Below are positions 1-22,848 of a stretch of 25,473 bases of DNA, in pieces (positions within the stretch are counted from its first letter, which is position 1; the number at the start of each line of letters is the position of its first letter). The stretch spans positions 1 to 25,473 of the forward strand of contig KZ992627.1 of the NCBI GenBank assembly GCA_003614735.1, read 5' to 3'. The notes under the pieces were generated by a model. It was not told where the DNA came from. It ran no database searches and saw only the letters and a program-made list of their open reading frames with translations. This DNA is from Thamnocephalis sphaerospora. Its lineage: Eukaryota > Zoopagomycota > Zoopagomycetes > Zoopagales > Sigmoideomycetaceae. The translations under genes and the position numbers were made by a program.

Positions 1-30
1 CGTGAATAAAGAGATCATCATTTCAAGCAC
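1..30 (-). ncRNA. box C/D snoRNA, 5' part only (snR73 expected from order)
   Basis: A perfect C box ATGATGA lies at 21-15 on the minus strand, 42 nt after the donor at 63, the same spacing as in the other five introns. The rest of the snoRNA, including any guide and D box, lies outside the window. By its place in the series it should correspond to yeast snR73, but nothing visible tests that. Confidence 0.6.
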
Positions 31-182
31 GCACTGTGGAGGGATGAGGGAAGCGCAGCTTACCAGGTGCAGCTTGCGTAGGTTGCCACGGCTCTAAACA
101 GAATGTTGCAACAGATTGATATCTACCCCAAAACGCAGGTGAGCAACATGCATCGTAGGCACAACAAAGAGATGTCAAGAGA

Positions 183-256
183 ATGCATCAGAATGTAAGG
201 GATCCGCATTATGGTTCAGATATATGCTTGTCATGAATAGGTATCATCACGCGCAC
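183..256 (-). ncRNA. snR74: box C/D snoRNA, snR74/U27 counterpart (SSU Am28 guide)
   Basis: It lies in intron 5 of the host gene. A short stem GTGC/GCAT (256-253 with 186-183, including a G-U pair) encloses a perfect C box GTGATGA (250-244), D' CTGA (219-216) and D CTGA (191-188). The guide before D', GACAAGCATAT (232-222), complements ATATGCTTGTC near the 5' end of SSU rRNA. The fifth base from D' faces A28 in yeast numbering, the target of yeast snR74 and vertebrate U27. The element before D has no target that I recognise. Confidence 0.88.
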
Positions 257-422
257 AAAAGCTCAAAAGGGAGTGACTGTCAATGCTTACCATAATCTAG
301 TGCAATGGCGGTGCGGCAAGTAAGTGCTGAAATATACAAGCAGCAATCTGTATGCAGGCGGTGCAATGGTTAGCTACTATTCAACAAACACCAAAAGCAG
401 CAGCCACATTGAAAGTGCGAAG

Positions 423-520
423 GGACAGATCAGAAAGCCATGCATGAATGTAAAAAAGGTTGGTCAACATCGAATTACTCGAATCAGACTCGTCATCTAA
501 AGGGCTCATCACTTCGGTCC
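423..520 (-). ncRNA. snR75: box C/D snoRNA, snR75 counterpart (LSU Gm2288 guide)
   Basis: It lies in intron 4 of the host gene. A stem GGAC/GTCC (520-517 with 426-423) encloses a perfect C box GTGATGA (512-506), D' CTGA (487-484), a C'-like ATGTTGA (470-464) and D CTGA (433-430). The element before D', TTAGATGACGAG, complements LSU CTCGTCATCTAA, with the fifth base facing the G that I number as yeast G2288, the snR75 target. The element before D (446-435) is complementary over 12 nt to SSU AAGCCATGCATG, pointing at a C for which I know no yeast methylation. Confidence 0.88.
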
Positions 521-695
521 ACTGGGGCGGGGAGGAAAGGAAAGGGACACTAGGAAATACTTACAAGCTAAGACAGCGTGCTTGATTCATTGGCCGTGGA
601 TCGACTGTCAGATGCCTAATGCGACAAACTACGATAAGCGTTAGCAGATGCAAATGACCAGCCAACTACATCGCCGATCGGCGTGGCGCAACAGC

Positions 696-787
696 TCGGA
701 TCAGGTGCCGTCGAATGTCAAAGTGTGACGACAATACACATTTTGGCATCATGGTGTTCAGTGCCCAGTGCAAAACATCCTTTCCAA
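696..787 (-). ncRNA. snR76: box C/D snoRNA, snR76 counterpart (LSU Cm2197 guide)
   Basis: It lies in intron 3 of the host gene. A stem TTGGA/TCCGA (787-783 with 700-696, one G-U pair) flanks a weak C box AGGATGT (781-775) and the D box CTGA (704-701). D' CTGA (761-758) and C' ATGATGC (752-746) are clear. The guide GCACTGGGCA (771-762) complements LSU TGCCCAGTGC, with the fifth base facing the third C, which I number as yeast C2197, the snR76 target. A further 13-nt element (725-713) complements LSU GAATGTCAAAGTG just downstream of that site, but is not in register with a D box and may be an accessory pairing. The weak C box is the main uncertainty. Confidence 0.78.
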
Positions 788-946
788 ACAGTGTCCACCC
801 TATGGGCCATCTCGTGCAAATACTTACATTGTGATGCAGCGGCATGGGCTTGCGGCTTGCTAGTGTCAGGCAGACAAGGGCATCTACACACGGGAGAAAC
901 AACGGTTAGCTCCGTAGTTGATGCACTGCAGGCGCATGACAGGCGT

Positions 947-1033
947 ATGTCATCAGTAATCAGCCGCAATCGTGTCCTCATTAATATTTCGGACGGTAAT
1001 TCCAACATGATTGATTTGATCATCATCTGACAT
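947..1033 (-). ncRNA. snR77: box C/D snoRNA, snR77 counterpart (SSU Um578 guide)
   Basis: It lies in intron 2 of the host gene. A perfect terminal stem ATGTCA/TGACAT (1033-1028 with 952-947) encloses a perfect C box ATGATGA (1026-1020) and D box CTGA (956-953); D' is the variant CCGA (992-989). The guide before D', TGGAATTACCG (1004-994), complements the universally conserved 530-loop sequence CGGTAATTCCA of SSU rRNA. The fifth base from D' faces the U right after the conserved GG (E. coli U531, yeast U578), the known snR77 target. The guide before D has no target that I recognise. Confidence 0.88.
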
Positions 1034-1193
1034 TGCCGGCGCTTTCAACCATGACGCGGCTTACCTAGCACAAACACCAGGCTGCATCTCTGGAGCAGGC
1101 CATTCTGGCGGCGGTAGGACTTCTATTGGGGTTCTGCAGGCACAGCGTTAGCTTCAAATCTCAGACGAGCAGACCATCGTCTGCGACATGCGT

Positions 1194-1287
1194 GCAGTAC
1201 GCTCAGGAAAAGAGAGTTGTAATCAAAAAAAGCATATAGCTATTCAGAAACTCTAGTTTGAAAAGATTGGATCATCTTTGCAACTGC
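1194..1287 (-). ncRNA. snR78: box C/D snoRNA, snR78 counterpart (LSU Um2421 guide)
   Basis: It lies in intron 1 of the host gene. A terminal stem GCAGT/ACTGC (1287-1283 with 1198-1194) encloses a degenerate C box ATGATCC (1275-1269), D' box CTGA (1247-1244), C'-like TGATTAC (1225-1219) and D box CTGA (1206-1203). The element before D' contains CAAACTAGAGT, complementary to the conserved LSU sequence ACTCTAGTTTG. The fifth base from D' faces the U that I number as yeast 25S U2421, the known snR78 target. A second element before D, AACTCTCTTTTC, complements the conserved LSU D1 stretch GAAAAGAGAGTT. The rRNA sequences and numbering are from memory; the complementarities are read directly. Confidence 0.85.
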
Positions 1288-1543
1288 GCGAGTATGGGGA
1301 GAGGGCTCAACGGGCAACACCTACCACATGTAGCTAGACTCGAGCAACAAAGTGATGTGTAAATGTAGATATACAAACGGCTAGGACATGTTGCTGAAAG
1401 GGAAAGGAAAGAAGTGAAGATGGCTGTCGCTGACACGGGTGGTGTGGGCACCGCCTTTTGTAGGCGGCAACGACGCGACTGTTTTGCTTCTTTTTCTGCC
1501 TGCTGGGCATGGGTCCGACCCATGTAGCAGTTTTAGTAAAGCC

Positions 1544-1589
1544 GCACACACCAGCACACACACCAGCACACACACACGCACACACACAT
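1544..1589. repeat. CA-rich microsatellite
   Basis: An imperfect (CA)n run interrupted by CCAG and CACG units. It lies in the gap between the snoRNA host gene's 5' end and the Psf3 stop codon. Confidence 0.9.
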
Positions 1590-1622
1590 TTAATTGACAG
1601 TAGGGTACAGCAATGGCAGCAG

Positions 1623-4001: not shown

Positions 4002-6281
4002 TCACGGCCGGCGAGCGACCAGCACATTTAGGGTCCAGTAGGTGTGCGTGTGTGCTACCTCACTACGCCAGGCTTTTAGCGTAGCGTCAAACTCTTCGCG
4101 ATCGACAGAAAGTCGCTCTGCAAGCAGGTTCCGATCAGCCTCCAACGCCCAGCATGCCCCCTCCAGGCTGGCGGCGCCGAGAGAGCCGGCCCATCCGCCC
4201 ACCGGGACTTGAATCTGCTGCACCTGCACCATCTCAAACCCGGCGTCTTCAATACTCTGCTGCATCTCCGCTAGTGATGGGACTGCGCGGCTGTGCGCTA
4301 GAGACGCGTACCGCAGCCAGGTGTTCACCTGCTGCCCGGCCGGCCCAACCGTGTCAAACTGCAGCTCGCGCTCTTGTACCTCCAGCAGACCGCCGCTCTT
4401 GCACAGGCGGAAACATTCTCGCCAGTACGCGTAGCGTTGCTCGCGTGGCACATGGTTGAGGAGAAAGCGGTGATGCAGATAGGTGAACTCTTCGCTTAAA
4501 TAGGGCAAGGCTATGATACGTGTTGAACGTGTTAGCTAAAGTGTGCACAGTGACATTCAAAAGTTGTCTGCAAACACACCTTCCAGGTTTTGAGCTAAGC
4601 GGAAATGACAGTTGGGCGGAAGGACGGTCGTTGGCTGTGCCGGCAGCAGATCCATACCGTGGATTTGGCAGTCGGGATATTCGGTGGCCATCTCCAAGGC
4701 CCAAGCGCCAGAGCCGGTCATCAAATCTAGCGTGTTGCCCATATTTTCAGTCGGCACAAAGTGGTTCGTGCCGGTTGCTGCTCGCACGAGGTAGTGTAGT
4801 TGGTCCTGGCGATCCAGCTCACTTTGGTCTTCTGTAGTAATCATCGGCAATGCCAGCTGCCTGTTGCGCAGTTTACGACGAAGGTTGCTTGCACCGGCAA
4901 GCGTCAGATCCACGCTTCGCTGGCTCCATGAGCTCTTTCTGGCATGTCTGCCCAGATCTTTCCGCTCGTCGCTGCTTTCGTCATTGCTCCTTTGCGCAGC
5001 TGCACTTGGAAGAAATGCTTGAATGCTAACATTGCTGAAATGGTCCATCTTGGGCAGGCTTGCTTTTTTCGAAATGGTATCCATTTCACCGGTGGTAGCA
5101 GACTGGCGAGCCTTGGATCTGGCGTATCCGGCAAAGGTCCGTGAAGCGCGCGGTGCTGTCTGTAGTGCAAGGTCCGGGCTGCTTGGCTTGGCCCTTACAG
5201 CACGAGGAACCTGTGATGGCGGTGGTGGTGGTGGGCGCTCCGGAAGCATCCACTTTTCCAGCAGAGTATCGCCCGAAAATGGCTGCGAAAGATCACCGAA
5301 AGAGAGAGCTGGTGCGCTGATTTTCGCCGGTAAAGCCAGATGAAAGGGCGACTGCGAGTATGGTGCCTCGGGGCGAAATGCAGGATAACGCTCCGTAGAT
5401 GCAAACTCGGTGCTTGAAACGGTGCTGCTTTCCGATGACGACTCGTAGTCGCTGCCACTAGAGAAAGCGGCTGTATGATCGCCATATGACAGATGCCTTG
5501 TAGTTGGATAGACTGTCCCATTTGCCTTGGTGTTTCCGTGCAAAGTGTCGTTATAATGGCTACGGGCACTGATGTCGTTGTGCGAGGCTGCTCGACGATG
5601 GCAAAGACGATGCTGGCCGTTACTCCTGGAGGCAGCTTCGCCATCGAATGCTGACGCGGTGGCATTCAACGCAGTCCAATTGGCGCTTAGATACTGGTGA
5701 GTACGGGACGGGCTGCTTGCCAGGCCAGATGTGGCGCCACATGGATTGTACTCGTCACTGGAAAGACGAGCTTGGCTCTGAACGTTTAGGTGTTGCCCGA
5801 CGTGTTCTAGGTGTCTAGATACCGCATTGGACTGTGACCGCGGACACATCCGTGGACTAGACGCGCTTTGTCGTGGTGTTACCCGACCAACACCGACAGC
5901 GGTGGTACTTTTGACCGAATAATCCGGCACAGCCACCAATAGGGCCGCCTCTTTTGGCAGTGAAAAGGGTGTCGGGTCGGTAAAGGCCCTGTATTTCCTC
6001 GCTGCTGCACCGGCGTTCCGGAGCACTATAGATTCCGATCGTAGCAATGATGGCATGGACCGCTTTGTCGTAAGCGGGTTGCTGCTTGTAGCGACGTGCT
6101 TGCTGTTTTGATCGGTACCAAATGCGCTGGACTGTTCTACGCTCAGCTGTGGGCGAGATCGTGCATGCCTGATCGTGGCACTATTGAAGCATGCAGCGTG
6201 CTTACTGCCTGTTGTATGGGGAGCTAGTGCGTGAGCAGCGTCACAAGTCAAGCCTTGAGATGAACTGTGGGCGGCACCCAT
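4002..6281 (-). CDS. MT-A: long, divergent SAM-dependent methyltransferase-like protein
   Basis: The model has two exons, 6281-4580 and 4510-4002, with a 69-nt phase-1 intron (GTGTGT donor, GCTAACA branch), 736 aa. The first 450 or so residues are low-complexity: serine runs near residue 300 and a proline run (RPPPPPPS). The methyltransferase-like domain starts near residue 515. Motif I reads LDLMTGSGAWALEMA, with Met for the first glycine of the usual D-x-G-x-G-x-G. The FDxVHxR region is FTYLHHR and the PGGWxE region is KSGGLLE. The acidic end of strand 2 (HGMDL) and the C-terminal LNVLVARRP are kept. It may bind SAM poorly or not at all. The Met-Gly start (MGAAHSSSQ) was chosen by analogy with the three paralogues; in-frame ATGs at 6347 and 6308 are alternatives, and a 5' leader intron (donor at 6476) is likely. 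Confidence 0.75.
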
Positions 6282-9038
6282 CAGGTACCACGGGCGCGAG
6301 CGCGGCATCTTTGTGGGCGCTGACTCTGATGCAAGGGGAACAGTCATGTTGGATCGGCGACGTACAGCTGTCGATGAACACCAGATGCCGTTGAAACAAA
6401 CGTCGGCGAAAAATACAATATTAGATACCATTCTACCTGTAGCTGCACTAGCAAGCAAGCAGAATAGTGTACTTACTATGTAAACGCAATTCCGGCAAAA
6501 ACGGATGACTTGAATGAAAGGGGGCTTTAAAGCGGAGGTGCACGTACGCGCCTGGCGAGTGCGGGTGAAAGCTGTAATGATAGACACGTCCGTGTAAATG
6601 TAAGAGAAGACAGCGTCAGAAAAACGTTGTGACAAAGTGTGCCACGGCGCCAGAACGCCAACGACAGCATTACCACGCACAGCAGTCAGCAGTCAAGTTG
6701 GCGGAATAGAGGTAACGCAATGGCGACACAGCGCGCGGGTTGCTAGGACAAGCAGGCGGCGATGGCGATCCGCGCAGAATAGATAGGGCGGGTGTGAGTA
6801 CACCTGGGACTGCGGCGCGAGATAATTGGAATAAATAGACTAGTGCGTGCTGCGAGATGACTACTGCACGTTTGTAGACTGCAAGTGTAGAATATGTGTG
6901 CGTGAGAGCGCTGGTGCTGAGCAGCGGAAACACAAATATAGCACAGCGGTACAATACGACGACAACGCAGGAGAGCACCACGTACTCGTTTTCGGGCACA
7001 ATAAAACGATGGGGCGGTGGCGGAAAAGGCGTGCACTGCTGGTCGAATACGACGCTATATAGGCAGACATGGAGCGGCGACGAATGGTTATCAGCCAAGC
7101 CCAAGGCGCGGATGGGAGTAGGACTACGTGTGCTGTGCAGACGATGATAACAGTGGCCCATTGCATACAGCCGGGGTAGAGTGGCTGATATGGAAGTGCG
7201 TACAGACACGCTAAACCACTCGCTAGCAGCGTGGCTGTAGCATTGTATCATGGCACCACATGTGCGTCCACACTACAGCCGATGCAGACCTAATAGATTT
7301 TGCAACTACACCCATCAGGCTAGTTGCACGACGCGAAATATGGCAGTACAGACGCATGTGAATGGCTGATGGATAAAGCAACGACACAAGGGTGGCGAAA
7401 TTGACGCCAAACGCAAGCGGAAACAGAAATCATCGATAATCTAGGCTAGCACACAGGCGAAGAGCCTGTAAGCACGAGCACGGTGCACGAAATTACGGCG
7501 CACAAGCATCGCACAAAGCCACTTTCACCAGTCAGATGGCACCTATGGCTGGACAATACCGTTGCTGGTGATTTGCCCACCCGCATGCCATCCGTCGCTA
7601 GGAAGCTCCGTTTTGGATGACGCTCGCCCATAGACGAATCATTTGGCAACCGACGTTGCCTTCAACGGTACGCTACGCGAGAAATGCTGCACGATATAAA
7701 TGGTATGGGTGGTGGCGCAGTAGGTGCAAGCAGCCAACACAGCGTTGGTGGGAGTCACAAGTGCGCCGGCTTTGCCACAAGTAGCGAGTGCAGCATTAGA
7801 ACCGCCGGTACACCGCATCATGAGAGCATAAACACCGCTGGTGTCGCAACAGAGAGGCGCCAATGGTACAATCCTTACCAATGCAGAGTGTATCGTAAGT
7901 AACAAGAGAACCTCGACTAGCGAGTTTAACAGTGTAGAGGTGCGGGAGATGAGTGGCAGCGGCGGGGGTGCTTGCGTATTGAGGTGCTAATAAGTAATTC
8001 GGTCGACTGCGCCGCATGTAAAGAAACGGCATGGCTGTATGAGGCGGTGCTTCGCAATCTTTTTTCTACTAGCACGATTTCTAAAATAGCAGTGCATTCA
8101 CGTTTACTCAAAACAGTATCTCAGCAAAAGTTTCATGTGCACGAAACTAGCAGCATCCAGGTACCAGCAAAGCGGTACCGATATTGACCATAGTGTTTTG
8201 AATCACCACTTTCAAAGACCGGGCTGATCTTTGTGGGAAATGAGCGCACGTGTAAAAGTGTATCAAGAGCTCGCTTACAGCAAGACGCTTTCCGCGTCCG
8301 TGCTTTCGCGACAATGTGGGCTGCAGTGTGCGGGGTATTCCAGAAGTTACCGCCACCCGCGCAACGCGGGTTTAGAAACTCGGGCAGGTAGTAGCGTAGC
8401 GCAAAGGTCGAGGTCGAACAACTGTCAGCGATGCGAGCTGCACGGTAGGGGCACCGTATCCGCGATGTCTTTCGAATACCTTGCTTTCTGAGCTGTACGC
8501 CAATGTAAACACGCGTCTGCTAGATGTCGCGCAACAGAGCAATTGTGCGGCATATCTCTGCAAACGACGAGGCACACCAAAATGTTACCCTTACGCTTGA
8601 TTTTGGACACAGTGCTCAGTGACATCCAGGAGACTGAAATACGCATTGCAGCTATCTCAGATAGCGCAGGCTCAGCAAGGATACAAGCGGGCGCCGCGCT
8701 ATTTACGCCACCACCTAATTGCTAGTCTCATCAAAGTAAGTTTAGCAATTCTAGACGCTGTTTGGCTTTTCACATGGATAGCCTACTGGTAAATATTGTC
8801 TGCTGATTGTATGGCGCTATAGATCAGGGACAGTACCATCGACACTGGTGGGGTGCACGCCATTATGCATCGATGATTGGGCATCAACGTTGGGCAGCAG
8901 TGTCTCAAGCCTCAAGAGGTGTCATTGGTAGCATGGCTGCTGGCATGTCTGAACGCTTGAGCGTGCTGGCGTTTGGTGTGCGTAGCGCTGCCAGGCGAGT
9001 CGTGTTACGTATCTTGGTTTCATCGCTCTAGCTGTCGG
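6282..9038. other. Long gene-poor interval upstream of MT-A
   Basis: About 2.75 kb. The part nearest MT-A (to about 7100) is pyrimidine-rich on the minus strand and looks like its promoter and leader, including a strong GTAAGT donor at 6476-6471. From 7250 to 9038 there are only short overlapping ORFs on both strands with no domain or composition that I recognise. I found no tRNA, rRNA, transposase or reverse-transcriptase sequence. Confidence 0.5.
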
Positions 9039-9764: not shown

Positions 9765-11213
9765 TCACCAAGGTCGCCGTGCAGTGTACACGCACACGTT
9801 ATAGTAGGCGCGTCCAGCGTTAACCTCGGCGCCATACTCGGACATCAGCCACTCAATCTCATCCTCGGAGGTTACGCCGGCTTCGAGCATTTGCGAGCGG
9901 CTGTAGACAAGCCAGTCTGCAAAATCGTGTGCGATAAAGTCGCCCATCTGACCACCCCAGCGCCCGACTGGCAGCGAGACGACAGTACGCTCCACGTGAA
10001 CAAAGCCGACAGCGCGTAGGATCACATCCAGGTGTCGGATCAGCTCCAGGTCAATGCCGTTGGCAGAGCTAAACCGATGTGAGAGCGTGTTGATGGCAGC
10101 GGCCACTGGTCCGCAGTCCAGGTGCCGACCATCAGACTCGGTCACCTGGATCCAGCCGCCTGGGCGTGTGACGCGAAACAGCTCTGCAAAACAGTGGTGC
10201 CACTCTTCCGATGGAATCCCGGCCACTAGATAGCGCCAGTGGACAAGGTCAAAGGTGTTGGGATTGAACGAGAGGCCTATAGAGTCGTGGAAGAAAAGGT
10301 CACAGAACGGGTGAGAAAACGTGCAATGTTGCCGTGCACGCGCCGGTAGCTTACCATCGCAAATGTCCATGCGGAAAAACTGACAGTTGGGCGGCCGTTT
10401 GGCCCAAGGAAAGCGATCGTATAGATCGACGCCCAGGACCTGGCAATCTGGCCACTCTTCAGCCATGTCCAGTGCCCATTCTCCAGTTCCCGTGCCTATG
10501 TCCAGCACGCTACGCGGCTCGACGATTGGTGCAATGTAGTTGCCGCCGAGAACAAACTGATAAAGCCGGTGTTTGCAGTGCGCACGTATACTAGGGTCGT
10601 TTGTGATGTCCAGTCCCCAGTGATCAAGTAGCGAGTCGATCTGCAGGGCATCGCTATCATTAGCCTCCAGCTCAAGGTCGCAATCCTGCTGCTGCAGTGA
10701 GTCAGGACAAGGAAGCGGCTGCGCGTGTCCTGAAAAACTGCTAGTCTTGTGCAGCGTGCGCTGTTGTTGGAAAAACATGGCCGTTGTTGATACAGGATAC
10801 CGTCTGTAGCCTTTCCGACCGACTACGTTCACGGTGGGCATGGAATGACGACGGCTGTTTGGTAGTGTGCATGCTGCCGGAAGGTATCCGCACAGCTGCA
10901 GATTGTCGGTGTGCTTTTGTTTCCGCTCCAGCCACCAAAAGTGGCGTCCACTAGGGTCCGACGTGTCTAGCGGACAGTGCGCATCGCTGCGCATAGAGCT
11001 CAATGATCGCTGGCTGCTCTTGCGGGGTAGTCGACCCGAGAGTGCAAGCGCGATTGTGTGGATAATGCTGCCGGTTGATGTACCAGAGCTTTCGGTGCTG
11101 GTCAGGCCAGCTGGCTCGCTGCTGCAGCGGTATGCGGGCCTGCTCACTTTTGCGAGTTTGGCATCGGCATCCAGCTCGCCGCTGTGACTGCGCTTTCCGT
11201 GAATGTTACCCAT
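9765..11213 (-). CDS. MT-B: LaeA-type SAM-dependent methyltransferase
   Basis: The model has two exons, 11213-10355 and 10276-9765, total 1371 nt, 456 aa. The domain has canonical class I motifs: motif I VLDIGTGTGEWALDMA at residues about 236-251, GVDL at the end of strand 2, PPNCQF, FDLVHWRYL, TRPGGWIQVTE, then VSLPVGRWGG and the C-terminal VYTARRPW. The 78-nt intron (GTAAGC donor, CTATAG acceptor) is a multiple of three and has no stop, so an uninterrupted ORF runs through it; alignment with the paralogues shows it is an intron. The N-terminal 200 or so residues are disordered and Ser/Arg-rich, with a FWWL motif. The Met-Gly start (MGNIHGKRSHS) is preferred to an in-frame ATG 60 nt upstream. 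The substrate is unknown; the family includes LaeA-like regulators. Confidence 0.88.
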   Translation of the reverse strand: MGNIHGKRSHSGELDADAKLAKVSRPAYRCSSEPAGLTSTESSGTSTGSIIHTIALALSGRLPRKSSQRSLSSMRSDAHCPLDTSDPSGRHFWWLERKQKHTDNLQLCGYLPAACTLPNSRRHSMPTVNVVGRKGYRRYPVSTTAMFFQQQRTLHKTSSFSGHAQPLPCPDSLQQQDCDLELEANDSDALQIDSLLDHWGLDITNDPSIRAHCKHRLYQFVLGGNYIAPIVEPRSVLDIGTGTGEWALDMAEEWPDCQVLGVDLYDRFPWAKRPPNCQFFRMDICDGKLPARARQHCTFSHPFCDLFFHDSIGLSFNPNTFDLVHWRYLVAGIPSEEWHHCFAELFRVTRPGGWIQVTESDGRHLDCGPVAAAINTLSHRFSSANGIDLELIRHLDVILRAVGFVHVERTVVSLPVGRWGGQMGDFIAHDFADWLVYSRSQMLEAGVTSEDEIEWLMSEYGAEVNAGRAYYNVCVYTARRPW

Positions 11214-13394
11214 GGCTAGCGGAAAGTATAGGGAGAGCGGAATACGCGGCTGCAAACTGGTAAGCACGTGCAAGTAAAGTCGCGACAGCTGAGCAAGGCG
11301 TAGAGCGACAAGTGCGTCAGGTAAAAGCGTGGCTACTGGGTGCGGGTGACCCTGGCCAAACGATGATTTGCAGGGCAGCGCGCGCGTAGAGAAACAAGAC
11401 AGAAGAAGTGGTGGTGGTGGTGGCGGCGGTGGTGCTGGGAGAATACTCGAGTAGGAGCGGGGCGGAGTTGGTGGTGGCGGTGCACGGATGGGTGTGATCG
11501 GGTGTGCGGTGTGGCAAGCGTGCTGGAGGACAGTGCGCTGTATATATCACTACGGACGCGAGTCAGGCGACGGTAGACAACTGTACGGCGCCGGTACAGA
11601 CTTTTAAGATTCAGGGGAGAGTACGTGAAGGAAACGAGGGGCAAACGAGTCGGGCAAAAACGACGCCGTTCAAGTTGCCATAAAGTGTGTGCGCGTGCGT
11701 GTGGATAGCGGTGACCTGGCGCGTGCTGCTAAGAAGCGCATGTGACCGGTGCGGTGAAGCCAGGCCGTGGTGATGAGGATAAGCCAGATCGGCAACGCCG
11801 CACCCGCTCTCCGCCAATTTGTCATCCCAGCGTCGCCAGGTCAACATACGCGTCGGTAGGGAAAAGGAGAGCTGCGCACACAGGTGGCCAAGGCAGGCGT
11901 AGCGATGGTAGCGGGTCAAGGAAAAGGGATGGCGCCTTACCAGACGCCGCCACGATAGCAGATGGTTGCGGTCAGCATGCCAACTGGCGGCAGTCTTGGC
12001 GTGCGCGCGCACCGGCAGAATAGAAGCGCTGGCGGGTCAAAGAGGCGGGTCGGAGCGGGTCGGACGGAGTATCAACGCATCCACCGGCCCTGTACAGCAG
12101 GAAAAACCAGTGGCAAAACAACGGTGCTACCACCGCCACCGCACGCGAATGCCTTGGATGCTAAGGCGAGGTGTTAAGAGAACGGGCAAGGCAGAAATGA
12201 CCAGCAAACGCACGCATAAAGGTTGGACAAGGCACCAAGGATGATCGGTGGCACGCGTCTGCTGGTCTTACCGGTGGTACACGTACGGTGCTTGTGCCTG
12301 GCACCAAGTGCTTGTGTGGGTATGAGTGGTATACAAAAAAGTAGATGGCGACGACGCCTTCAGCAAAAGCCGATATTAGTGGGCGCGCACAGGATGACGT
12401 TCATTGATCAGTCTGTTTACTGGCGGCAGAGCGACAGTCTTGGCAATAATACCGAGACGCTGATCGGTCGGTCGGTCGGTCGGTCGGTCGGTCGGTGCGT
12501 CGAATGGAATGTACACAAAGCGGCGCTAGCGGTGGCTGGCGTGCAGGCAACAGCGAACGCGCTCGCGCTGACGGAGTAGAAGGAAAGAGTAAGGCTGCGG
12601 ATGTGGGGTGCCGGCGGCGCCTGTGCCGATATGAATAGGTTTTGTTAGCGCGCCGGTGTCAGTGCCGGCACGGCGCGGTCGGCCAGCGTCACTGTTTACA
12701 CTGGGGACTGTGCAGCATGTGAAATGCGGAGCAGATCGGCACTACTCGGCGCCTGTGAGCGTGTGAGCCGCCCGCCCGCCTGTTTGCGTGGAAAAGCCAA
12801 TGGAACTGGCCTCTGCACATTGTCGATCCATTGGAGGAAAACAGAAATATCAGGCCCAACCTGGCGATTAACCAGCAGAATGATCTCTGATCCGCCGTAG
12901 CCTTGTCCCGATGATGTCATTGGCGAGGCTTTGGACAACGTGCGCAGGAGTGACTGGTACCGTGCGCACCGCTGCTGTTGCGACCACTTTGCCAGAGCCA
13001 TCAACGCGCGTCACACGCCAGCGCTACAAAGGTGATCGCCGCGGCTATCTCATGCGCAATGGGGGAGAGAGAGAGAGCAGGCAGCAAACGAAAAGCACAC
13101 ATCTTGCAGCTGCACTCGTGCTTTATACAGCGATGCTAGCGGTCAAAACTATTGCTAGCCAGTACATCAGTGGCATGGCTGCCGCCAGCATAGCGTACCA
13201 TGCCGATGCCAATGCGTGCTAGTACATGCGCATGCTGGGGCCGCCTTGGGATAGCGTATCGCGATCAGTGGTAGATATCGCGTGCATGTGCATGCATTGG
13301 CGGTGCACAGACGCCATGCCCACGGGAAAGTGATTGATGTGAAACAGAATCACGCTACGTTCGGTCTATTGGGGTGTGAGCGTGGGTGGATGTG
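11214..13394. other. Gene-poor interval upstream of MT-B
   Basis: About 2.2 kb. The first 500 bp are pyrimidine-rich on the minus strand (including a CCA/CAC-rich stretch near 11409-11436) and likely form the MT-B promoter and leader. The rest holds two simple repeats and short ORFs on both strands without recognisable content. A GA/CT tract lies at 13066-13078. Confidence 0.5.
12464..12496. repeat. Tetranucleotide repeat (TCGG)n
   Basis: About 8.25 perfect copies of TCGG in the intergenic region between MT-B and MT-C. It is a simple microsatellite, probably length-variable. Confidence 0.95.
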
Positions 13395-14983
13395 CTAGGA
13401 TGAGTACGGCCGTCGCGCTGTGAATGCGTAGAATCTAACGTTGGTGTGCATGCTCTCCTTCTCAGCCTCCCATGCGTGCATCACATCCTCCACCTCGTCC
13501 GGAGCTATGAGATCGAGGTTGATGCTGCGGGCAATCACCTCTGACGCGAGCGCCTGGGTGTCGCGCCATGACTGCTCGCCGATAACGCCACCCCAATGGC
13601 CAAGAGGTACATCACGTGCCCGTGTGTCGACTTGCTCGAAACCGACGTCAGTCAGTATTCCGTCCAGTCGCGTTACCATCCGCGGATCCACATCACAGGA
13701 GGCAAACAGCGCGCGAGCCAGCGCATTCACGCGGTCGCCCACCTTGCCAGTGTGGCGGTAGCGTGCATCCCACTCGACTATCTCGACCCAGCCACCTGGC
13801 ACTGTCAGCCGGTATGCCTCGCTGAGGACCTCTGGCCAGCGGCTGGTTGGAAAGCTTGACGACATGAACCGAATGTGTACATAATCAAAACTACAGTTGG
13901 GATAGGTGATGCCTGCAAAAGACAGTAGCCGTCAGGGTGAGTCGATGAAGCAGCTGGCTTTGCACGCTTAAGCCTAGAGATGACGTACCTTTTAGCACGT
14001 CGCCGTATTCGAAACGGCAGTTGACCGGCATGGTGCTCTGTGGATATCCGTTTTCTACATCCACGCCCAGGAAGCTTGCCTGCGGATATGCGGTAGCCAT
14101 TTCCTACCGTACCCGTTCAGTATGCGTGAGCTGCACTGCGTACTCACGTCTGTGCATAAGAATGACTTACCAGTGCCCATACGCCGGTGCCAGTGCCAAT
14201 GTCCAAAACACGCGAGATGCCGTCAAACGGAATCAAACAATCGGCACCAAACACCAGACGCATCAAGTAGTGCTTTTCGCATTCGCTTTAGACACAATAC
14301 ACGGCGACATTAGCGGATACGCACTTGCCAATACGCCACTAACGGATATTCCACCACACCTACCGCTCGGCCTCTGTTCGTATGCCAAAAGACAGCGGCT
14401 CGCTCTTCGGTTTTACCGGTTGTGGCCACGATCGCCGATGCGTCTTGGAGATCCAGTGCGGTAGACGCCGAAACGCCATCACGCTAACGGTGCTATCACT
14501 AAATCGACGGCTTTTCGACGCTGCCGACGCGTCCTCACAGTGATGAGGGTGGAAGCCAGCGTCGTTGCTATCCTCGATCGCTTCATCCTCCATGATGCCC
14601 GTGTGTGATCGTCCATCAGAGTTGAAGGATTGCGTCTTGAGTGTTGCCCAGTTCTCTGGCTCCTCCCATCCTGTACGAGTTGTCTGACTGTCCATACTTG
14701 CACGGCGGCCGCGCGGAGTCATAAACGTGCGCGCTTTGCAGCGACTACCGCGCTGGTGCTCTCCTTTCTCGGTTACCAGTCCCTCGGGAATGTTGGCGGT
14801 TGATGTCGTTTTTAGCCAGGAGAGAAAATTACGCCGCTTTGGTGTCTCGCTGCTTCTGCTGCTGCTGCTGTTACTAACAGCGGAAGGACGTCGCGTTTTG
14901 ATCGGCTCGCTTGACGTCGACTGCACGCTACCTCGACGGGTACGGCCCGTCGCCGGCATCTCTTGCGACTGAATACCGCCCAT
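13395..14983 (-). CDS. MT-C: LaeA-type SAM-dependent methyltransferase
   Basis: The model has four exons, 14983-14364, 14285-14171, 14103-13989 and 13912-13395, total 1368 nt, 455 aa. Introns are 78, 67 and 76 nt with good donors (GTAGGT, GTAAGT, GTACGT). The first two are absent from the three paralogues; the third is at the shared phase-1 site. The domain begins HYLMRLVFGAD, then motif I VLDIGTGTGVWALEMA (residues about 233-248), GVDV, MPVNCRF, FDYVHIRFM, TVPGGWVEIVE, VPLGHWGG and C-terminal FTARRPYSS. All SAM-binding glycines are present, so it should be active. The first 200 residues are Ser/Arg-rich and disordered, with a run of serines. The start MGGIQSQEM fits the N-myristoylation pattern G-x3-S and is the first ATG of the frame. 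Confidence 0.9.
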
Positions 14984-15983
14984 AGAACTGCACTATTGTC
15001 GTAGTAATTGGATCGTGTCTTGATATGTGCTTTGCAGGCGCCGTCGTGCGATAACAATAGAGCGACAAAGAGTTGTGTGCTGCGGTAAGGTGAGGTCGCT
15101 GCAGCGTTAAAGGTTTGACTTATTTTCGTGCTGCATTCTAATTGTCGTCATCCCCGGGACGGCTGCACGTTTTGCCAAAGAACTCAGCCAACCGAAACTC
15201 AGTCACCCGGATGAATCGCCGGATAAGTGAAACCACTTGGCAAAATCCATCGTCTCAAGCATTTCACCCGCGCTGCAAACGCCGATCTTTCCAGATGTGT
15301 CAGCGTCACCGATAAACGTCCATCATTGATGCTAGCCTGTCTTACTTGGGCTTACTTATAATGCAATCTGCATAACCTGCCGATAATCACCTCTGCAAAT
15401 CATGGCAAGAGCTACCGGCAAATACATGCTAGCTTCAATTGCACTTGAGCTATAGCGATGCACTAAGCCATCGTCTGCTTTCCGTGTAGCATACTTTCGG
15501 CTTTGATAGCCAGCGTACTAGACCGTTTGCGACCCTTTAAGCTTTAAAGGCCTGTTGTCGGGCAGGATCACGCGGCGTCTGGAGGACAACTGGTGTTTCG
15601 GCTGTTCAACGAAATGCACTGTACTATGCTTATGGTAGACGACAACAACAACAACAACAGCAACAGTAGATGCACAAATGTGCGTGCGATGCATGCAGAG
15701 CAAACAAAAGGCCCGTAAAAGGGGCGGCGTGCAATTGCACGATAATAGCAACACAGGCAAATAATAGAAGCAAAATGTAGACATGAAGAATAAAAGGATG
15801 ATGGCGCATACAAGAGCGCGCGTGTTGTGCCTAGCTTGTGACCATGCTGAGCAAGAAAATGGACGATAAACGAGGGCATGCAGAGAAAGCAAAAAGAGAG
15901 AGAGAGCAAGATGGTGACATGTAGGCGGCGTTAAGAGCGAGACGCCGTGTATACTATAGCAGATCCAAGTGGAAGCTGCGTCG
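14984..15983. other. Intergenic, MT-C promoter and MT-D 3' flank
   Basis: One kilobase without a gene that I can support. It contains an AAC/CAG-type repeat and, near 15890-15907, a GA tract (CT on the minus strand). Long ORFs here are translations of low-complexity pyrimidine-rich sequence. Confidence 0.55.
15642..15666. repeat. (AAC)n trinucleotide repeat
   Basis: Short run of ACA/AAC units interrupted by one CAG, upstream of MT-C. Confidence 0.85.
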
Positions 15984-17252
15984 CTACTCATCACACAGCG
16001 ACACGCCCGGACGTTGCGCCATGTAAATGATCATATTGCCGTAGCACCGAGTAGCGTCTAGCTCTTTGCGCCAGGCATCGTAGAGTGCGTCCAGCGCGGA
16101 TGCTGCCACCAAGCCTAGCTCCAGGATGCACGATCGCACGGCACGCAGCGCGCCCGCGCAGTCCTCCATAAATAGACGACCAACATGGCCGCCCCAGTCG
16201 CCACACGGCAGCGAGACTACGATGCGCTCGACGCTATCATAGCCAGCTGCCGGCAGCAGCTTGTTCAGGCGGGCGACGCCGTGTATGTCCACGCCCACCG
16301 CATCAGTCAGACGCTCAAGCAGTAGATTCAGTTCGCGACCGGCAGGGCCTACCGAATGGAACTGCATCTCCATCTCCGCAAGCTCCATCCAGCCGCCGGG
16401 CGCAGTGACAGCGTACAGATCATCACAGATGGCGGGCCATTTCTTTGCAGGAATACTGCCGGCTAGGCACCACCAGTGCACATAGTCGTACCCACCTGGA
16501 AGCGAGCGCAGTCCCAGATCTAGGTGCGCGTGCGAGTGTTGCATGCGTTCACGCACAGAAAGTAAGCACCACGTTGCAGATCACCACATGGTCAGTTACT
16601 TGCCGCTCAAAAGATCTAGCTGCTCGAATCGGCAGTTGGCCGGCTTGACCGAAGAGGGAAAATGCGCGACCAGGTCAACGCCTGTGAACTGTGCCGATGG
16701 CCATTCGGATGCCATCTCCATCAGCCAGACGCCCGATCCGGTACCGACGTCCAGCACATGGTGCAGCTGATCGAGCGGAGCAACACGATTGTCTCCCAGC
16801 ACCCTGCGCAACAGTTCATATCGACGGTCCATTCGGTCCATCTCCTCCTCATCGCGCGGCGAGAGGGGTGGCTGTGTGCGGTACGGTTGCGGCCGGGCGG
16901 TCATGGCGCTGTAGCTGTTGGCGCCGACAGATGCAAGCGCAAACTCTGGCAGCGTGCTAGCACGTGCCCGCTGGCGTTCACCCGTCCTGGCAGCAGGCGG
17001 GACCAGCTCGGAGCGATGGCGGGTCAGAGGGCGTCCGCCTAGCCACCAGCTAGCGCGCACACGGCGTAGCTGGCTTGTTGACGCTTCTGCACCGGCGCTG
17101 GCTGCGGCGGTGTGTGGGGTGCCTTTGACCGTTGCCGTGGCGTTGGCAATGCCAAGCTTGCCGTGCCGGCTACCCTCCTGATCCGGATCAGGGGAGCGAC
17201 GCTGGTCTCGAGGATCAATTTCGTGTAGCAGTTTAGTATTTCTATTGCCCAT
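15984..17252 (-). CDS. MT-D: LaeA-type SAM-dependent methyltransferase
   Basis: The model has two exons, 17252-16604 and 16519-15984, total 1185 nt, 394 aa. The 84-nt intron has a GC donor (GCAAGT) and CTAG acceptor, at the same phase-1 site as the paralogues; no GT donor keeps the frame. Motifs: VLDVGTGSGVWLMEMA (residues about 166-181), GVDL, KPANCRF, YDYVHWWCL, TAPGGWMELAE, VSLPCGDWGG and C-terminal IYMAQRPG. The SAM pocket is intact. The N-terminal part is shorter than in the others, Arg/Ala-rich, with a WWL motif. The Met-Gly start (MGNRNTKLLHE) is an excellent myristoylation match and is preferred to an in-frame ATG 63 nt upstream. It is the most upstream member of the tandem array, next to PAN2. 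Confidence 0.9.
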
Positions 17253-18040
17253 ACGTACGGAAAAACGACAACTGAAGGCAACTGGGCGAGAGCGCAGTGG
17301 GGCCGGCAGACACAACGCGATGGTTTACTGTAAGAAGGCCCAGCTAGCACGGCGGTGGCAAACGAGGGATAGCAAGGGATAGTGGGACGATACGGGACAC
17401 GGACTGCAGGGCAGCGTCGGAATACGGCAGCATCGTCGACGTACATGATATACGAACATAGCATCAAGCTTGGCATCGGTGCTCACGCGGGTAAATGCGT
17501 TCGTATGTAACCGTGCACATGTGGAGCGTATCAAGGACTCCGCGTGGCTATATTTTGCGCATCTGCGGGTTTGTACCAGAGTCGGCCTCAGACCGACGCG
17601 TGCGCGCGCACAAAAGTCCTCATCGCGCTTAAACACTGCCATGTGGGTAATGCGTGCCAGCAACGGATGGCTAGCTGGTCAATCAGGCAGACGGGCATGC
17701 GTGCATGGTGGGCAAGGCAAAGGTTTACGCCTAGCCTTACATGGATGTGTGGTTGTGTTACCCGCGTGCCGTAGCAATGACGACAGCGCCGTCGGTGTTA
17801 CCCTGTTAGAGCGCTCAAAGCACCCAGACCAGGCGCGTGTCGCTACGCCGAGACCTGCGCACAAAACGGTGTGGTGGCGCGGGCGCATGTTGTCGAGCGT
17901 AGGACGCAAAGGGCCGCTCGACCCAAACCACGTATGTAGACGTACAATGTGCCACCGCGCACCTTGAGTTAGCCAGCGACAAGCCGAGGTGTGAAGACGT
18001 ATAGCTTTGTTATATGTAAGGCATCACACAACAATGGGAT
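17253..18040. other. Intergenic, MT-D promoter and PAN2 3' flank
   Basis: 788 bp. A plus-strand frame of 165 codons (17470-17967) has no recognisable motif and no supporting context, so I do not call it. Nothing else is seen. Confidence 0.55.
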
Positions 18041-21000
18041 CTAGGTGCCACCCGAGGTGGTCGCGCGGAACAAGGGCAGGCGCCGCGCCTCTGCTGCGTC
18101 GTCGTCTGCAGCCACCATTTCGGCGGTCGATGGACTGGCCAACAACGTTGGCGAGAGCAGCGCATCGTCATCTGCGGTCTCTGCATGCATGTCATCGTCG
18201 CCAGGAGGTAGCATGTGCAACGCTGCAGGTACTGCCTTGGATTTGAGGCCCGTCTTCGTCTCGGATGTCGGGTCTGTGTCATTGTTCGATGCAATAGTGG
18301 CGGGTGCTGGAGTCACGCTAGCGGCAGCTGCCTGATCCGGATGCACAATTGCAAGGGGCGCGGCAGGGGCTCGAGGCAACAGCGACTGCCCGGGCGGCTC
18401 ATCCTTTTCGCCGACCTTCCAGTTGCGCCGCCATCCTTCGGCATATATCCCCTCAAGAACGCGGTCAAATGTTCCCTTTGCACGCAGCTCCAGATACTTT
18501 TTGTACAGACGCAGTGCCTGAGCATGGATGCATATGTAAGCAAGTACATGCAGCGATGCAGCTCTCCACCAAAGAGCAAGCACTTACCGTGCGCGCATCC
18601 TCGATGCTGTCGTGTCCGCTGGTCTGAATACTTTCTCCAAGCAAGTACCAGGCAAGGAATCGGAGCGATATCTTTCGCTGGCGATTCTTCAGGTGAAAGA
18701 TGTCCACCGTGTCGATCACCTGCTCCGGCGGCACCATGATGTTGATGATGCGAAAGTCCTTCTTCAGCCCGTGGCCGACAAACACGCAGCCCATGTCGAG
18801 CAGAAGCCGCAGCTTTTTGTAGGCCGTTTTGAGCTGCACCAGATGGTGGCTTGACAGCGCAGGGTCGAGGTCGGCAGCTTCAATGCCCGAAAACTCGGTT
18901 AGGTAATCGACAATCGGCTCCGAGGTGGTGATGTAATCATCGATAAATGGCACGCCCTCTAATGCGCCATCGCCGCGCACTACGCTGACACGCGCCAGAC
19001 TCAGTCGAATGGGGCGAACCACGGTGCGCACGCCGTCCGCGCTCGTCTCTGTCTTTTCCTGGAAGCAGGATGGGTCCAGAGATTAGCACTGCCATCTGGT
19101 TGTGCGCATGTAGCACGACAACACCTACTTGGCTTAGCGCAACAAACTCGGCGTCAATGGCACACACGCTTCCCGGTCCAATGGCCTCGTCTTCCTCCAA
19201 CAGACGATACTGCTTGCAGGCGTCATTAGTATTTCTTCACCGACGTGCGCGGATATGTTAGTTTACATCCGCAATGACAAATGGGCCTTGTAAGCTCACA
19301 TAGACATGGACTCGCTGTTGCGCAGGATGTTGGGATCCGCGTACGGTGGGATAGGTACGTCTTCCAGCAAATCGTACGCGTTCTCGCGCACGTAGCATAG
19401 AACGGCAGGAAGCTATACAGCTGTACGGTAAGGGTGCAAACAACCAAAGCACGCGCATCGACGTTGACTTTCGTACCTTCCAGTTTGGTAAAAGATCCAG
19501 CGCTTCCGCTTCCTGCACCCCGCGAACCAAAAAGTCATTGAACAAATACCATTCGCTGCTATCGCCATCCAGGCTATCATACTCCATTGGCGGCACTGTA
19601 GCCAATGCAGAAGAGTAAGGTGATGCGATAGTACGCAAAGACGACAATTTCTGGATTGTGGCACGCACCGCGGATATGCGCCACCAAGTGGGGCAGCTCC
19701 TTTTCCGGTTGAATTTGGCTAATGACCGCCTAAGTAAAACATGACAATGGCGCACCATCGGTAAGCAGGTGTTGTTATCGACATCAAGCGTGTGTATGGC
19801 CTACCGATAGCTCAAAAATAGCATACTGGTTATAGAGTGCCTCGTCAGGTTCGAGCGCCGAGTCCCCTGCATCGCGCACATCCAGTTCACCGTCCTTTTG
19901 CAGTCCGATGAAAAGCCTGGTGTAGGTGTCTCGCATGTCAGCACACGCTTACACTCTCACTTTGCTGCACTACGGACCGTTTTGGGAGCCAGCGATGACT
20001 TTGGTCGGCTGCACCGTGGCTGCACCAATGCGAGCGATCCTCGCGCTTGTACAGGGCAGAGTTGATGTTCAGGATCACCGGTAGGCCTCGGAGTCGTTTG
20101 TGCTGGATTGTCGGCTGGTATTGCCGGCATCGATCGCACCAAGCGCGCGTCTGGCTTTCACGCGTCAGGCTGGACCGCAATATATCCGTAAATGGCCGGC
20201 TATGCTGACCGGCCATGTCGACGCTCTGCAACAGGTACAGGATATTCAGCAATGCTGAGCCGCATCCTGGGCGCGCATTGCACTCACCTTGGCCGCATAT
20301 GCCATATCGACCGTAAATGGTGACGAGTTGCGCTGTGTCATTTCGCCGCACTGGCATTGACTCTGTGTGACCATTGGTATCCCAAATAGCTGCTTGATCG
20401 GCGATGTTGCACCAGCGTCCTCGCCAATCGTCTCGTCGCCAGCCAGACTCTTCTCCATTTCGGTAGGACGCACCAGCATTGTTGAACCACACTCCTGGTG
20501 CAGTTGCTCCAGAATAAAGCGATTAAAGCTTTGGATAAGCGCGGAATAGGAGGTGCGAGGTTCAGGAGTTTCGGGTTCAAACAGACCGAGTGCTGATGCT
20601 ACAAGCGCCCATGTTTGCTGTTAATGCTGCGCAGCGAGTCGCCGCAGCGGCATGTGCACGCCACTAACCTTCTGGGATGGTACCAAATGCGCGCAGAAAG
20701 TTGCTTGCTTGGCAGTTGGCACCGTCGGCCGCCTCGAGCATTCGAAGAAGGAATCCAAGCTCGCAGCAAAGACAGTACTCCTTTGTACACTCCTGAGCAG
20801 TGTGCAGTTTGGCAGCAACACCAACGCCAGGCAGAAATCGGAGCGCTTGCAGCTCTGCATTGCAGTACGAATTGGTAATGTGCGTTTCCAAGCCACCAAA
20901 AAAAGTCTTGTTGTAGTAACTGTGCCGTGAAAGAGTTAAGATGGGCTGTCGGCTGTGCGGCAACGACGCTGTTGGTCTGCGCCACCTACCCAAAGTCAAA

Positions 21001-22848
21001 GTCTTCCACGCCAAACTTGCTGTACTTGATCTCGACTTTGCGGTAGTACTTTGGCATTTCTCCGGCGCGTGCCGACCATTCATTATCGGAAAACGGATCC
21101 ACGTCGAGGTCCAGGTCCGTATGCATTGTCTGTGGCACCATCGACAATCACGCCATTAGCTATACATCGTCGCAAACACCGTCGATCCTGTAGCGATGAC
21201 TTGCCGATGACCGTGACCGCCCGGAAAACATGTCCTTGTCGCGTTCTGAGCGGAACCTAGGCACCTCTGCTGTACGATACTTGCGATATGAGCTCGAGAC
21301 CTGGTTTCTTAGACGGGTGCCCGGATTGGGGGCATAGCCAACAAAGTCGACCGTTTTCATCTGATCCAGAACCTCGGTGTCGATAGCTTCAGCCGGTCGG
21401 CCCACCTCAAAGATCATATGTGAGGGCCAGGCCGAAAGCAGCGGCTGATCGTAGTAAGGCATTCCGACGAGCGATAACGGGCTGCCACCCGCAAAAGCGT
21501 TAGGGTACGCTGACCGGCACGTAGACACGCTCAATTGCCCAAAGTACATGCCTGTCGTCGGTCATGGCAGCGCTGGGAGGAAGGTGTGTCGAATCGGCCA
21601 TTTCTGGCATCTCCCCGCTCATATTGACGCGCGGATGCATGCTGTCCGTCCACAGACTGACCACCGAGCTGGCATCGCCAAACGCTACAAGTTCTCCAGA
21701 GGGTGAGATGTCAAACGCAGTGATGTAGCTGCTAGTGTTTGCCTAAGCATTTGTCTGCGCCATTAGACGGTCGCCTCACATATGCGTGCCATGTCACCAT
21801 ACCTGATAGAACTGGACCTGTGCCGCTGGATTACCGATGTCGCATGTCTGGAATTGACCGTCTTGCGCAGCAATAAATACGCTCAAGGGTTTGATAGGGT
21901 GCAGCTTGAGAAACGAGGGGCCGGCCACAAAGGATAGCGGTGCTAATGGACGCATACTGCGCAAGTCGTATACCTTGACGAGCGGATCGATGACTAGCTC
22001 ACCGTGACTATCGCACAAGAAGCCAGCGCATCCGTTTGATCGTTAGAAGATTGGCCGGCAATAGATGCGTCATTATCCTTGCTTACCGCTCCGAATAACC
22101 GCAAGTTAGCAAATAGTTGTCCGTGACGGCAATGTCTGAAATGGTTCCTGTATGCGCCTGCACCGCATGCTCCACGCGGAATGTGCGCGGATCGCGTAGC
22201 ATCACCTCGCCAGTTGCTGTTCCACAGCAGACCAGCTGGGATCTCCGCAGCACCACAATGTCGCTGTCGCAGTCAAACTATATGCGTTCACAAGTCAGAC
22301 TGCCGTTTTGTGCGCTGAAATCCGTTATATCATCAGCGACACTGACTTTGCGTATGATTGTGCCACGATCCACGTTGACCATTAGCGCACAGCGCTGCCG
22401 GCCAGCCACAATAACGTCTGAGTGCCGAAGGGCACTTGGCGCCATGCAGTAGAGATCCTGGGTAAGCATTGGATCGCTGCCAGACTATTAGCAGATGCCA
22501 CATATGCCAACTGCATGCAGCCGATTGATAAGGCGCCGCCCACCTAATGGTCCACTGCACCATACCGCGCCGGTTTGTTAGCCGCACGCTTTGAGGGCCC
22601 ACCGAGAGCACTCCGGTGGCCACGGGTATCAGCTGGCGGACTGGGCCCTGGTGTGCCCGGAAGCTGGTGTACTTGTGGATTTCTCCCCCAACATACGAGG
22701 CAACACGTCCATGCTCGTTACCCGTCCATAGCAGCTCCTGGTCCAAGTCAAAAGCGGCCGAGGTTAAAGCAGCTGGCGATGCAGTTACAGCCGCGGCTGC
22801 AGACAGATCGGCATCGCAAACCGACGACAGCTCTGACCAGCCGGCCAT
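18041..22848 (-). CDS. PAN2: PAN2, catalytic subunit of the PAN2-PAN3 poly(A) nuclease
   Basis: PAN2 starts cytoplasmic mRNA deadenylation with PAN3. Seventeen exons were joined: 22848-22544, 22476-22347, 22277-22087, 22007-21803, 21742-21552, 21481-21178, 21129-20990, 20919-20669, 20598-20288, 20225-19978, 19916-19805, 19729-19669, 19595-19477, 19412-19300, 19234-19129, 19058-18588, 18517-18041. The total is 3735 nt, 1244 aa. The WD40 region is residues 1-340 ([26 protein letters not shown]). The pseudo-ubiquitin-hydrolase region is about 485-880; [10 protein letters not shown] lacks the catalytic Cys, and the zinc-type pairs CQC and CDRC are present. The exonuclease is about 910-1110 with D921, E923 (IDAEF), D1030 (GLKKDF), H1078 and D1083 (HDSIEDA), so it should be active. 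The last 120 residues are an acidic, Ala-rich tail. Intron 5 appears to be GC-AG. The junction of exons 6 and 7 (48-nt intron) is the least certain. Confidence 0.95.

Follow-up and report, generated by a model that had tools for sequence, protein, structure and literature searches.

The window of this study is an entire contig of 25473 bases, taken from the 14.46 Mb, 594-contig assembly of Thamnocephalis sphaerospora (Zoopagomycota, Zoopagales). The genome was obtained with single-cell methods, alongside those of other uncultured fungi, according to the accessible text of PMC6784888. Assemblies of this kind can be partial. Five complete box C/D snoRNAs and the beginning of a sixth lie on its minus strand, from 1324 to 1, with one of them in each intron of a host gene (Table 1). 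The first-pass annotation had placed the five snoRNAs and the sixth start in the same intervals, and the Rfam matches and the boxes, all on the minus strand, confirmed this.

Table 1. Features of the snoRNA host locus in window coordinates. Guide and accessory pairings refer to a provisional yeast rRNA reference sequence and, where named, to the public LSU fragment L053.
Feature	Position	Strand	Details
Putative first exon / host gene 5' region	1325..1620	-	precedes the first 5' splice site (1324)
Intron 1, 191 nt, with snR78	1134..1324	-	GTAGGT...GCTAAC...CAG
snR78 box C/D snoRNA	1201..1282	-	RF01176, 36.5 bits (gathering 48)
snR78 guide	1261-1250	-	12 nt paired; D'+5 opposite LSU U2421 (Um2421), yeast rRNA reference
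Internal exon, 69 nt	1065..1133	-	bounded by splice sites
Intron 2, 181 nt, with snR77	884..1064	-	GTAAGC...GCTAAC...TAG
snR77 box C/D snoRNA	945..1032	-	RF01178 (snoR77Y), 47.8 bits (gathering 52)
snR77 guide	1004-994	-	11 nt paired; D'+5 opposite SSU U578 (Um578), SSU reference
Internal exon, 56 nt	828..883	-	bounded by splice sites
Intron 3, 212 nt (199 nt with the AG at 629), with snR76	616..827	-	GTAAGT...GCTAAC...TAG
snR76 box C/D snoRNA (SNORD88 family)	694..789	-	RF00604, 32.8 bits (gathering 46)
snR76 guide	771-762	-	10 nt paired; D'+5 opposite LSU C2197 (Cm2197), L053 and yeast LSU reference
snR76 accessory LSU-complementary element, 13 nt	713..725	-	yeast LSU reference; in the 3' half of snR76
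Internal exon, 51 nt (64 nt with the AG at 629)	565..615	-	bounded by splice sites
Intron 4, 217 nt, with snR75	348..564	-	GTAAGT...GCTAAC...CAG
snR75 box C/D snoRNA	428..514	-	RF01185, 60.6 bits (gathering 40)
snR75 guide	500-489	-	12 nt paired; D'+5 opposite LSU G2288 (Gm2288), L053 and LSU reference
snR75 accessory LSU-complementary element, 9 nt, weak	442..450	-	yeast LSU reference; also in L053
Internal exon, 57 nt	291..347	-	bounded by splice sites
Intron 5, 168 nt, with snR74	123..290	-	GTAAGC...GCTCAC...TAG
snR74 box C/D snoRNA (SNORD27/U27 family)	184..255	-	RF00086, 38.8 bits (gathering 52)
snR74 guide	232-222	-	11 nt paired; D'+5 opposite SSU A28 (Am28), SSU reference
Internal exon, 59 nt	64..122	-	bounded by splice sites
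Start of intron 6 and of the sixth C/D snoRNA	1..63	-	5' site at 63, C box, contig end

The Rfam check recommended at the outset succeeded for snR75, the only one of the five snoRNAs to reach its gathering score; snR78, snR77, snR76 and snR74 stayed below theirs. These four were found by a permissive search of positions 1-1600 against 4227 families, with E values of 1e-7 to 1.4e-3 in a search space of 1600 bases. Their names follow from guide target and order and not from an Rfam threshold. SNORD88 is presumably the family of snR76. SNORD27 is the family of snR74 in a table of PMC3511168, and snR76 and human HBII-180 share one target row in a table of PMC2780460, as far as the accessible parts of both papers go. 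An exact C box (RUGAUGA) is present on the minus strand in snR77 (1026), snR75 (512), snR74 (250) and the sixth unit (21). All five complete snoRNAs have a CUGA D box near the 3' end, and the D' box is CUGA in four and the variant CCGA in snR77. The flanks pair with predicted energies of -11.0 kcal/mol for snR78, -10.7 for snR77, -10.2 for snR76, -7.7 for snR75 and a weak -4.3 for snR74, all calculated without a shuffle control.

The guides were compared with a provisional yeast rRNA reference sequence and with L053, a eukaryotic LSU fragment and one of seven public rRNA records found. The expected nucleotide stands at D'+5 in all five guides, within 10-12 Watson-Crick pairs to the provisional yeast rRNA. 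The targets proposed earlier (Um2421, Um578, Cm2197, Gm2288 and Am28) were thus recovered on that reference, and those of snR75 and snR76 on L053 as well. Because the yeast sequences are provisional, three checks were applied to them. The three LSU target sites lie exactly 91 and 133 nt apart, in agreement with their numbering; A28 is the 28th base of the SSU reference; and the LSU reference segment is identical to L053 at 241 of 263 positions. L053 by itself yields the guide matches of snR75 (12 nt) and snR76 (10 nt), two of the three LSU guides; it diverges from yeast at the snR78 site and is without SSU. The target sites are not present in L059, another public rRNA record, and three further scans of viral_contigs for rRNA gave no match. 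The rDNA of T. sphaerospora itself was sought with short patterns in contigs of at least about 10 kb, and the counts were 0, 0 (exact) and 0 (at most two mismatches). Contigs are numbered by decreasing size and C586 of 594 has 10195 bases, so that the searched set appears to cover only contigs of about 10 kb or more and the absence says little. The records L052 and L054-L058 are bacterial MAG entries with a short eukaryotic LSU stretch beside other DNA. R2-type insertions, for some of these records, and eukaryotic contamination are the likely origins.

Additional complementarity to LSU was found in the 3' half of snR76. On the yeast reference, the LSU match of this 13-nt element lies downstream of the guide match, separated from it by a gap of 3 nt, and none of 2000 shuffles, which kept base composition only, reached it. 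The corresponding match in L053 is 9 nt long, and its gap is likewise 3 nt. For snR75, the 9-nt accessory match was reached by 40 of 2000 composition-only shuffles. Extra pairing between snoRNA and rRNA is a known phenomenon. The accessible text of PMC6171561 has nothing on additional rRNA pairing for snR76.

Two of the C boxes are degenerate, namely AAGAUGA in snR78 (one change from RUGAUGA) and AGGAUGU in snR76 (two changes), and both align to the C box of the respective Rfam model. Together with the loss of snR76 reported for R. oryzae (in the accessible text of PMC3596301), they would fit a partly degraded copy of the cluster in which some units, notably snR76, are non-functional. On the other hand, snR76 retains its 10-nt guide, its D box, its 13-nt accessory pairing and its flank pairing, and the SNORD88 consensus C box itself departs from the canonical form (AUGAUGU). 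Only a small chance is therefore left to a degraded copy.

The intron architecture was examined with a joint pattern as the intron signature, GTARG followed by KCTMAC and YAG. Positions 1-1345 contain five signatures, every one of them on the minus strand. Five were reached in 0 of 1000 dinucleotide shuffles, the highest count being 1, and the rest of the contig has at most one signature per stretch (76 overlapping stretches on both strands, 152 counts). The five predicted introns are 168-217 nt long with GTARG 5' sites and YAG 3' ends, and the branch sequence is GCTAAC in four and GCTCAC in one. Intron 3 may have its 3' splice site at 616 or at 629, and the joint pattern chose 629. Each snoRNA starts 32-50 nt past the 5' splice site and ends 39-58 nt ahead of the branch A. 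The claim of one snoRNA per intron is supported.

In S. cerevisiae, processing of the SNR72-SNR78 polycistron includes an RNase III step. A yeast-like polycistron could be imagined for T. sphaerospora also, with an endonuclease freeing the snoRNAs from an unspliced precursor and with incidental splice-like signals, because the yeast cluster has the same snoRNAs and guides in the same order. However, the yeast cluster has no introns and gives an unspliced transcript (PMC3596301, accessible text), which differs from a layout of five phased intron signatures with one snoRNA in each. The distance of 32-50 nt to the 5' splice site also speaks against a polycistron, as intronic snoRNAs of N. crassa lie mainly 41-60 nt from theirs in the accessible part of PMC2780460. 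A polycistron is regarded as extremely improbable at this locus, and splicing of the host remains the preferred reading.

The host transcript appears to be non-coding, as the first-pass annotation had put it, and its internal exons are small (51-69 nt). When these are joined (292 nt, with the 51-nt form), every frame is interrupted by three or four stops, and no open run exceeds 53 codons. Because exon 1 is not defined, a short peptide with an upstream start is possible. Three of the five internal exons (69, 51 and 57 nt) are divisible by three, which together with the undefined exon 1 would suit a small protein-coding gene with the snoRNAs as intron passengers. The stops argue against such a gene, and so do the cluster hosts of N. 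crassa, which according to the accessible text of PMC2780460 have only short ORFs. A coding host is considered very unlikely, and an apparently non-coding host is preferred. Directly upstream of the snoRNA host and on the same strand lies the gene of the GINS subunit PSF3 (about 1620-2542, minus), with a PSF3_N match of 49.4 bits from a translation joined by hand.

The sixth unit has a C box, AUGAUGA, at 21-15, followed by 14 bases to the contig end, of which the terminal ones are UCACG. We take the snR73 guide to start with (C)UCACGACGG. The terminal UCACG is compatible with this start, and five bases are weak evidence, so that the identity of the sixth unit as snR73, cut by the contig end, is a guess. 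SNORD111 was dropped as an identity for this unit (match at 30-1) with 20.0 bits against a gathering score of 46. Both snR73 and snR72 are not seen in the cluster because the contig ends. Elsewhere in the contigs of at least about 10 kb, a match to the snR73 Rfam model on contig C4 (14.2 bits) was rejected; sub-cut-off matches were also obtained in 8 of 14 control genomes. The snR73 guide pattern combined with a D-like box gave two matches, equal to the count of the reversed control, and inspection by eye showed no C box within 120 nt upstream of either. Rfam at the gathering score gave nothing in three stretches around the C4 place and these two matches. The snR73 guide 10-mer had 42 matches, of which 41 were examined; two had TGATG at most 45 nt upstream, and neither was snR73-like. 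For snR72, a guide 11-mer had no match in contigs of at least about 10 kb, a search without a positive control.

Cluster I of fungi is snR78-77-76-75-74-73-72 (Luo et al. 2013, PMC3596301, accessible text). The first five units of the T. sphaerospora locus match this order, each inside an intron signature. The yeast order given in the first-pass annotation was accordingly upheld, both by the succession of the Rfam matches and by the published order. As far as the accessible text of PMC3596301 goes, 323 of the 460 snoRNAs analysed across three clusters were predicted to be intronic. In Euascomycetes, Basidiomycota and R. oryzae, the clustered snoRNAs are without exception intronic, whereas in S. 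cerevisiae and its close relatives all come from unspliced transcripts. According to the same text, R. oryzae and the fission yeasts have lost the snR76 intron, and most fungi the snR72 intron. The T. sphaerospora locus shares with the intronic form of cluster I the snoRNAs, their order, the intronic layout, the small exons and an apparent lack of a long open frame. Its host also resembles animal UHG/SNHG1 and GAS5, which are multi-intron, apparently non-coding hosts with one C/D snoRNA per intron, but their snoRNA set and order are other than those of cluster I. In N. crassa, the accessible text of PMC2780460 describes five clusters conserved with yeast, intronic and with short-ORF hosts, with RT-PCR support. 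These C/D clusters are like the present one in their introns, in their UHG-like, apparently non-coding hosts and in the similar spacing of the snoRNAs from the 5' splice site. A difference is CD5 of N. crassa, a single snoRNA that combines the guide of snR78 with that of snR72.

Taking together what can be read in the DNA, namely the boxes, the registration of the guides at D'+5, the splice signals, the spacing from snoRNA to branch and the order, the locus is very probably the T. sphaerospora copy of fungal cluster I, with one snoRNA per intron of an apparently non-coding host. RNA polymerase II would transcribe the host from the minus strand. Each intron would then be spliced out and its lariat debranched, and exonucleases would trim the debranched introns to the ends guarded by C/D proteins. 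The mature snoRNPs are predicted to direct 2'-O-methylation of U2421, C2197 and G2288 in LSU and of U578 and A28 in SSU.

The arrangement itself is already known from many fungi, and T. sphaerospora is a good but ordinary further example. What appears to be new is a Zoopagomycota case of the intronic cluster I that retains snR76, and the accessory pairing of snR76. T. sphaerospora is not among the species named in the accessible text of PMC3596301, where R. oryzae is the sole species of Zygomycota. The accessible passages of one paper on snoRNA and Zoopagomycota deal with introns of RPL7 and NOG2 and not with cluster I. The earlier suggestion of an ancestral cluster that fungi share and express in two different ways is supported; the idea that the cluster was re-packaged into introns is not, since the accessible text of PMC3596301 has the intronic state in most examined fungi. 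There the yeast polycistron is attributed to decay of splice signals, as a derived, de-intronized form, so that the direction is opposite to re-packaging. A switch of expression is not a new suggestion either, as it had been published by 2013 at the latest (PMC3596301). It is most likely that the intronic layout is ancestral and the S. cerevisiae polycistron derived; the basis for this is the literature, to which T. sphaerospora adds one further case. Mitrovich et al. 2010 reportedly gave an earlier, first statement of the splice-signal-decay mechanism.

T. sphaerospora keeps the snR76 intron, the loss of which is reported for R. oryzae. Therefore, the intronic cluster including snR76 is likely older than the split between Zoopagomycota and Dikarya. 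The presence of snR76 in T. sphaerospora also strengthens the view of the yeast polycistron as a late, de-intronized derivative. With moderate confidence, we go one step further and propose that the ancestor of Zoopagomycota and Dikarya had a host with one snoRNA per intron, snR76 included, that the gapped and intron-free forms are losses, and that snR76 has an old, conserved grip on LSU through two helices of 10 and 13 nt, 3 nt apart.

Other snoRNAs were looked for in the same genome. For snR70, a member of other fungal clusters, there was no match in contigs of at least about 10 kb and likewise none in the control genomes, and this null shows nothing because snR70 was silent in every control genome. 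A candidate for snR61 (17.1 bits) was rejected, as it turned out to be an snR56-like snoRNA. With these outcomes, clusters II and III are not established in the T. sphaerospora genome. The snR56-like C/D snoRNA scores 45.6 bits (gathering 54) and lies on the minus strand (L039:1582-1500; contig C168, about 22742-22819). By eye, it is flanked on its own strand by GTAAGC and GCTAAC...TAG, and from these splice-like signals it is probably another intronic snoRNA.

The remainder of the window contains several protein genes. A run of SAM-dependent methyltransferase-like genes occupies 9765-17324 on the minus strand, and a stretch at 4557-6692, whose ORF gave no match to Pfam, was assigned to it by eye only. 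Several of the predicted N-termini begin with MGN or MGG, and the run suggests a tandem family. Across its full length, the methyltransferase at 11213-9765 shares 40% identity with a protein of Syncephalis plumigaleata, its best named relative. A PAN2 deadenylase gene of several exons, with PAN2_N and UCH_1 matches, was found at about 19938-22851 (minus). The protein THASP1DRAFT_23774 (partial) corresponds to 24423-25388, with 77% identity over 90% of the unspliced query, and its 265 residues are spread over an alignment of 322 columns, consistent with an intron left in the query.
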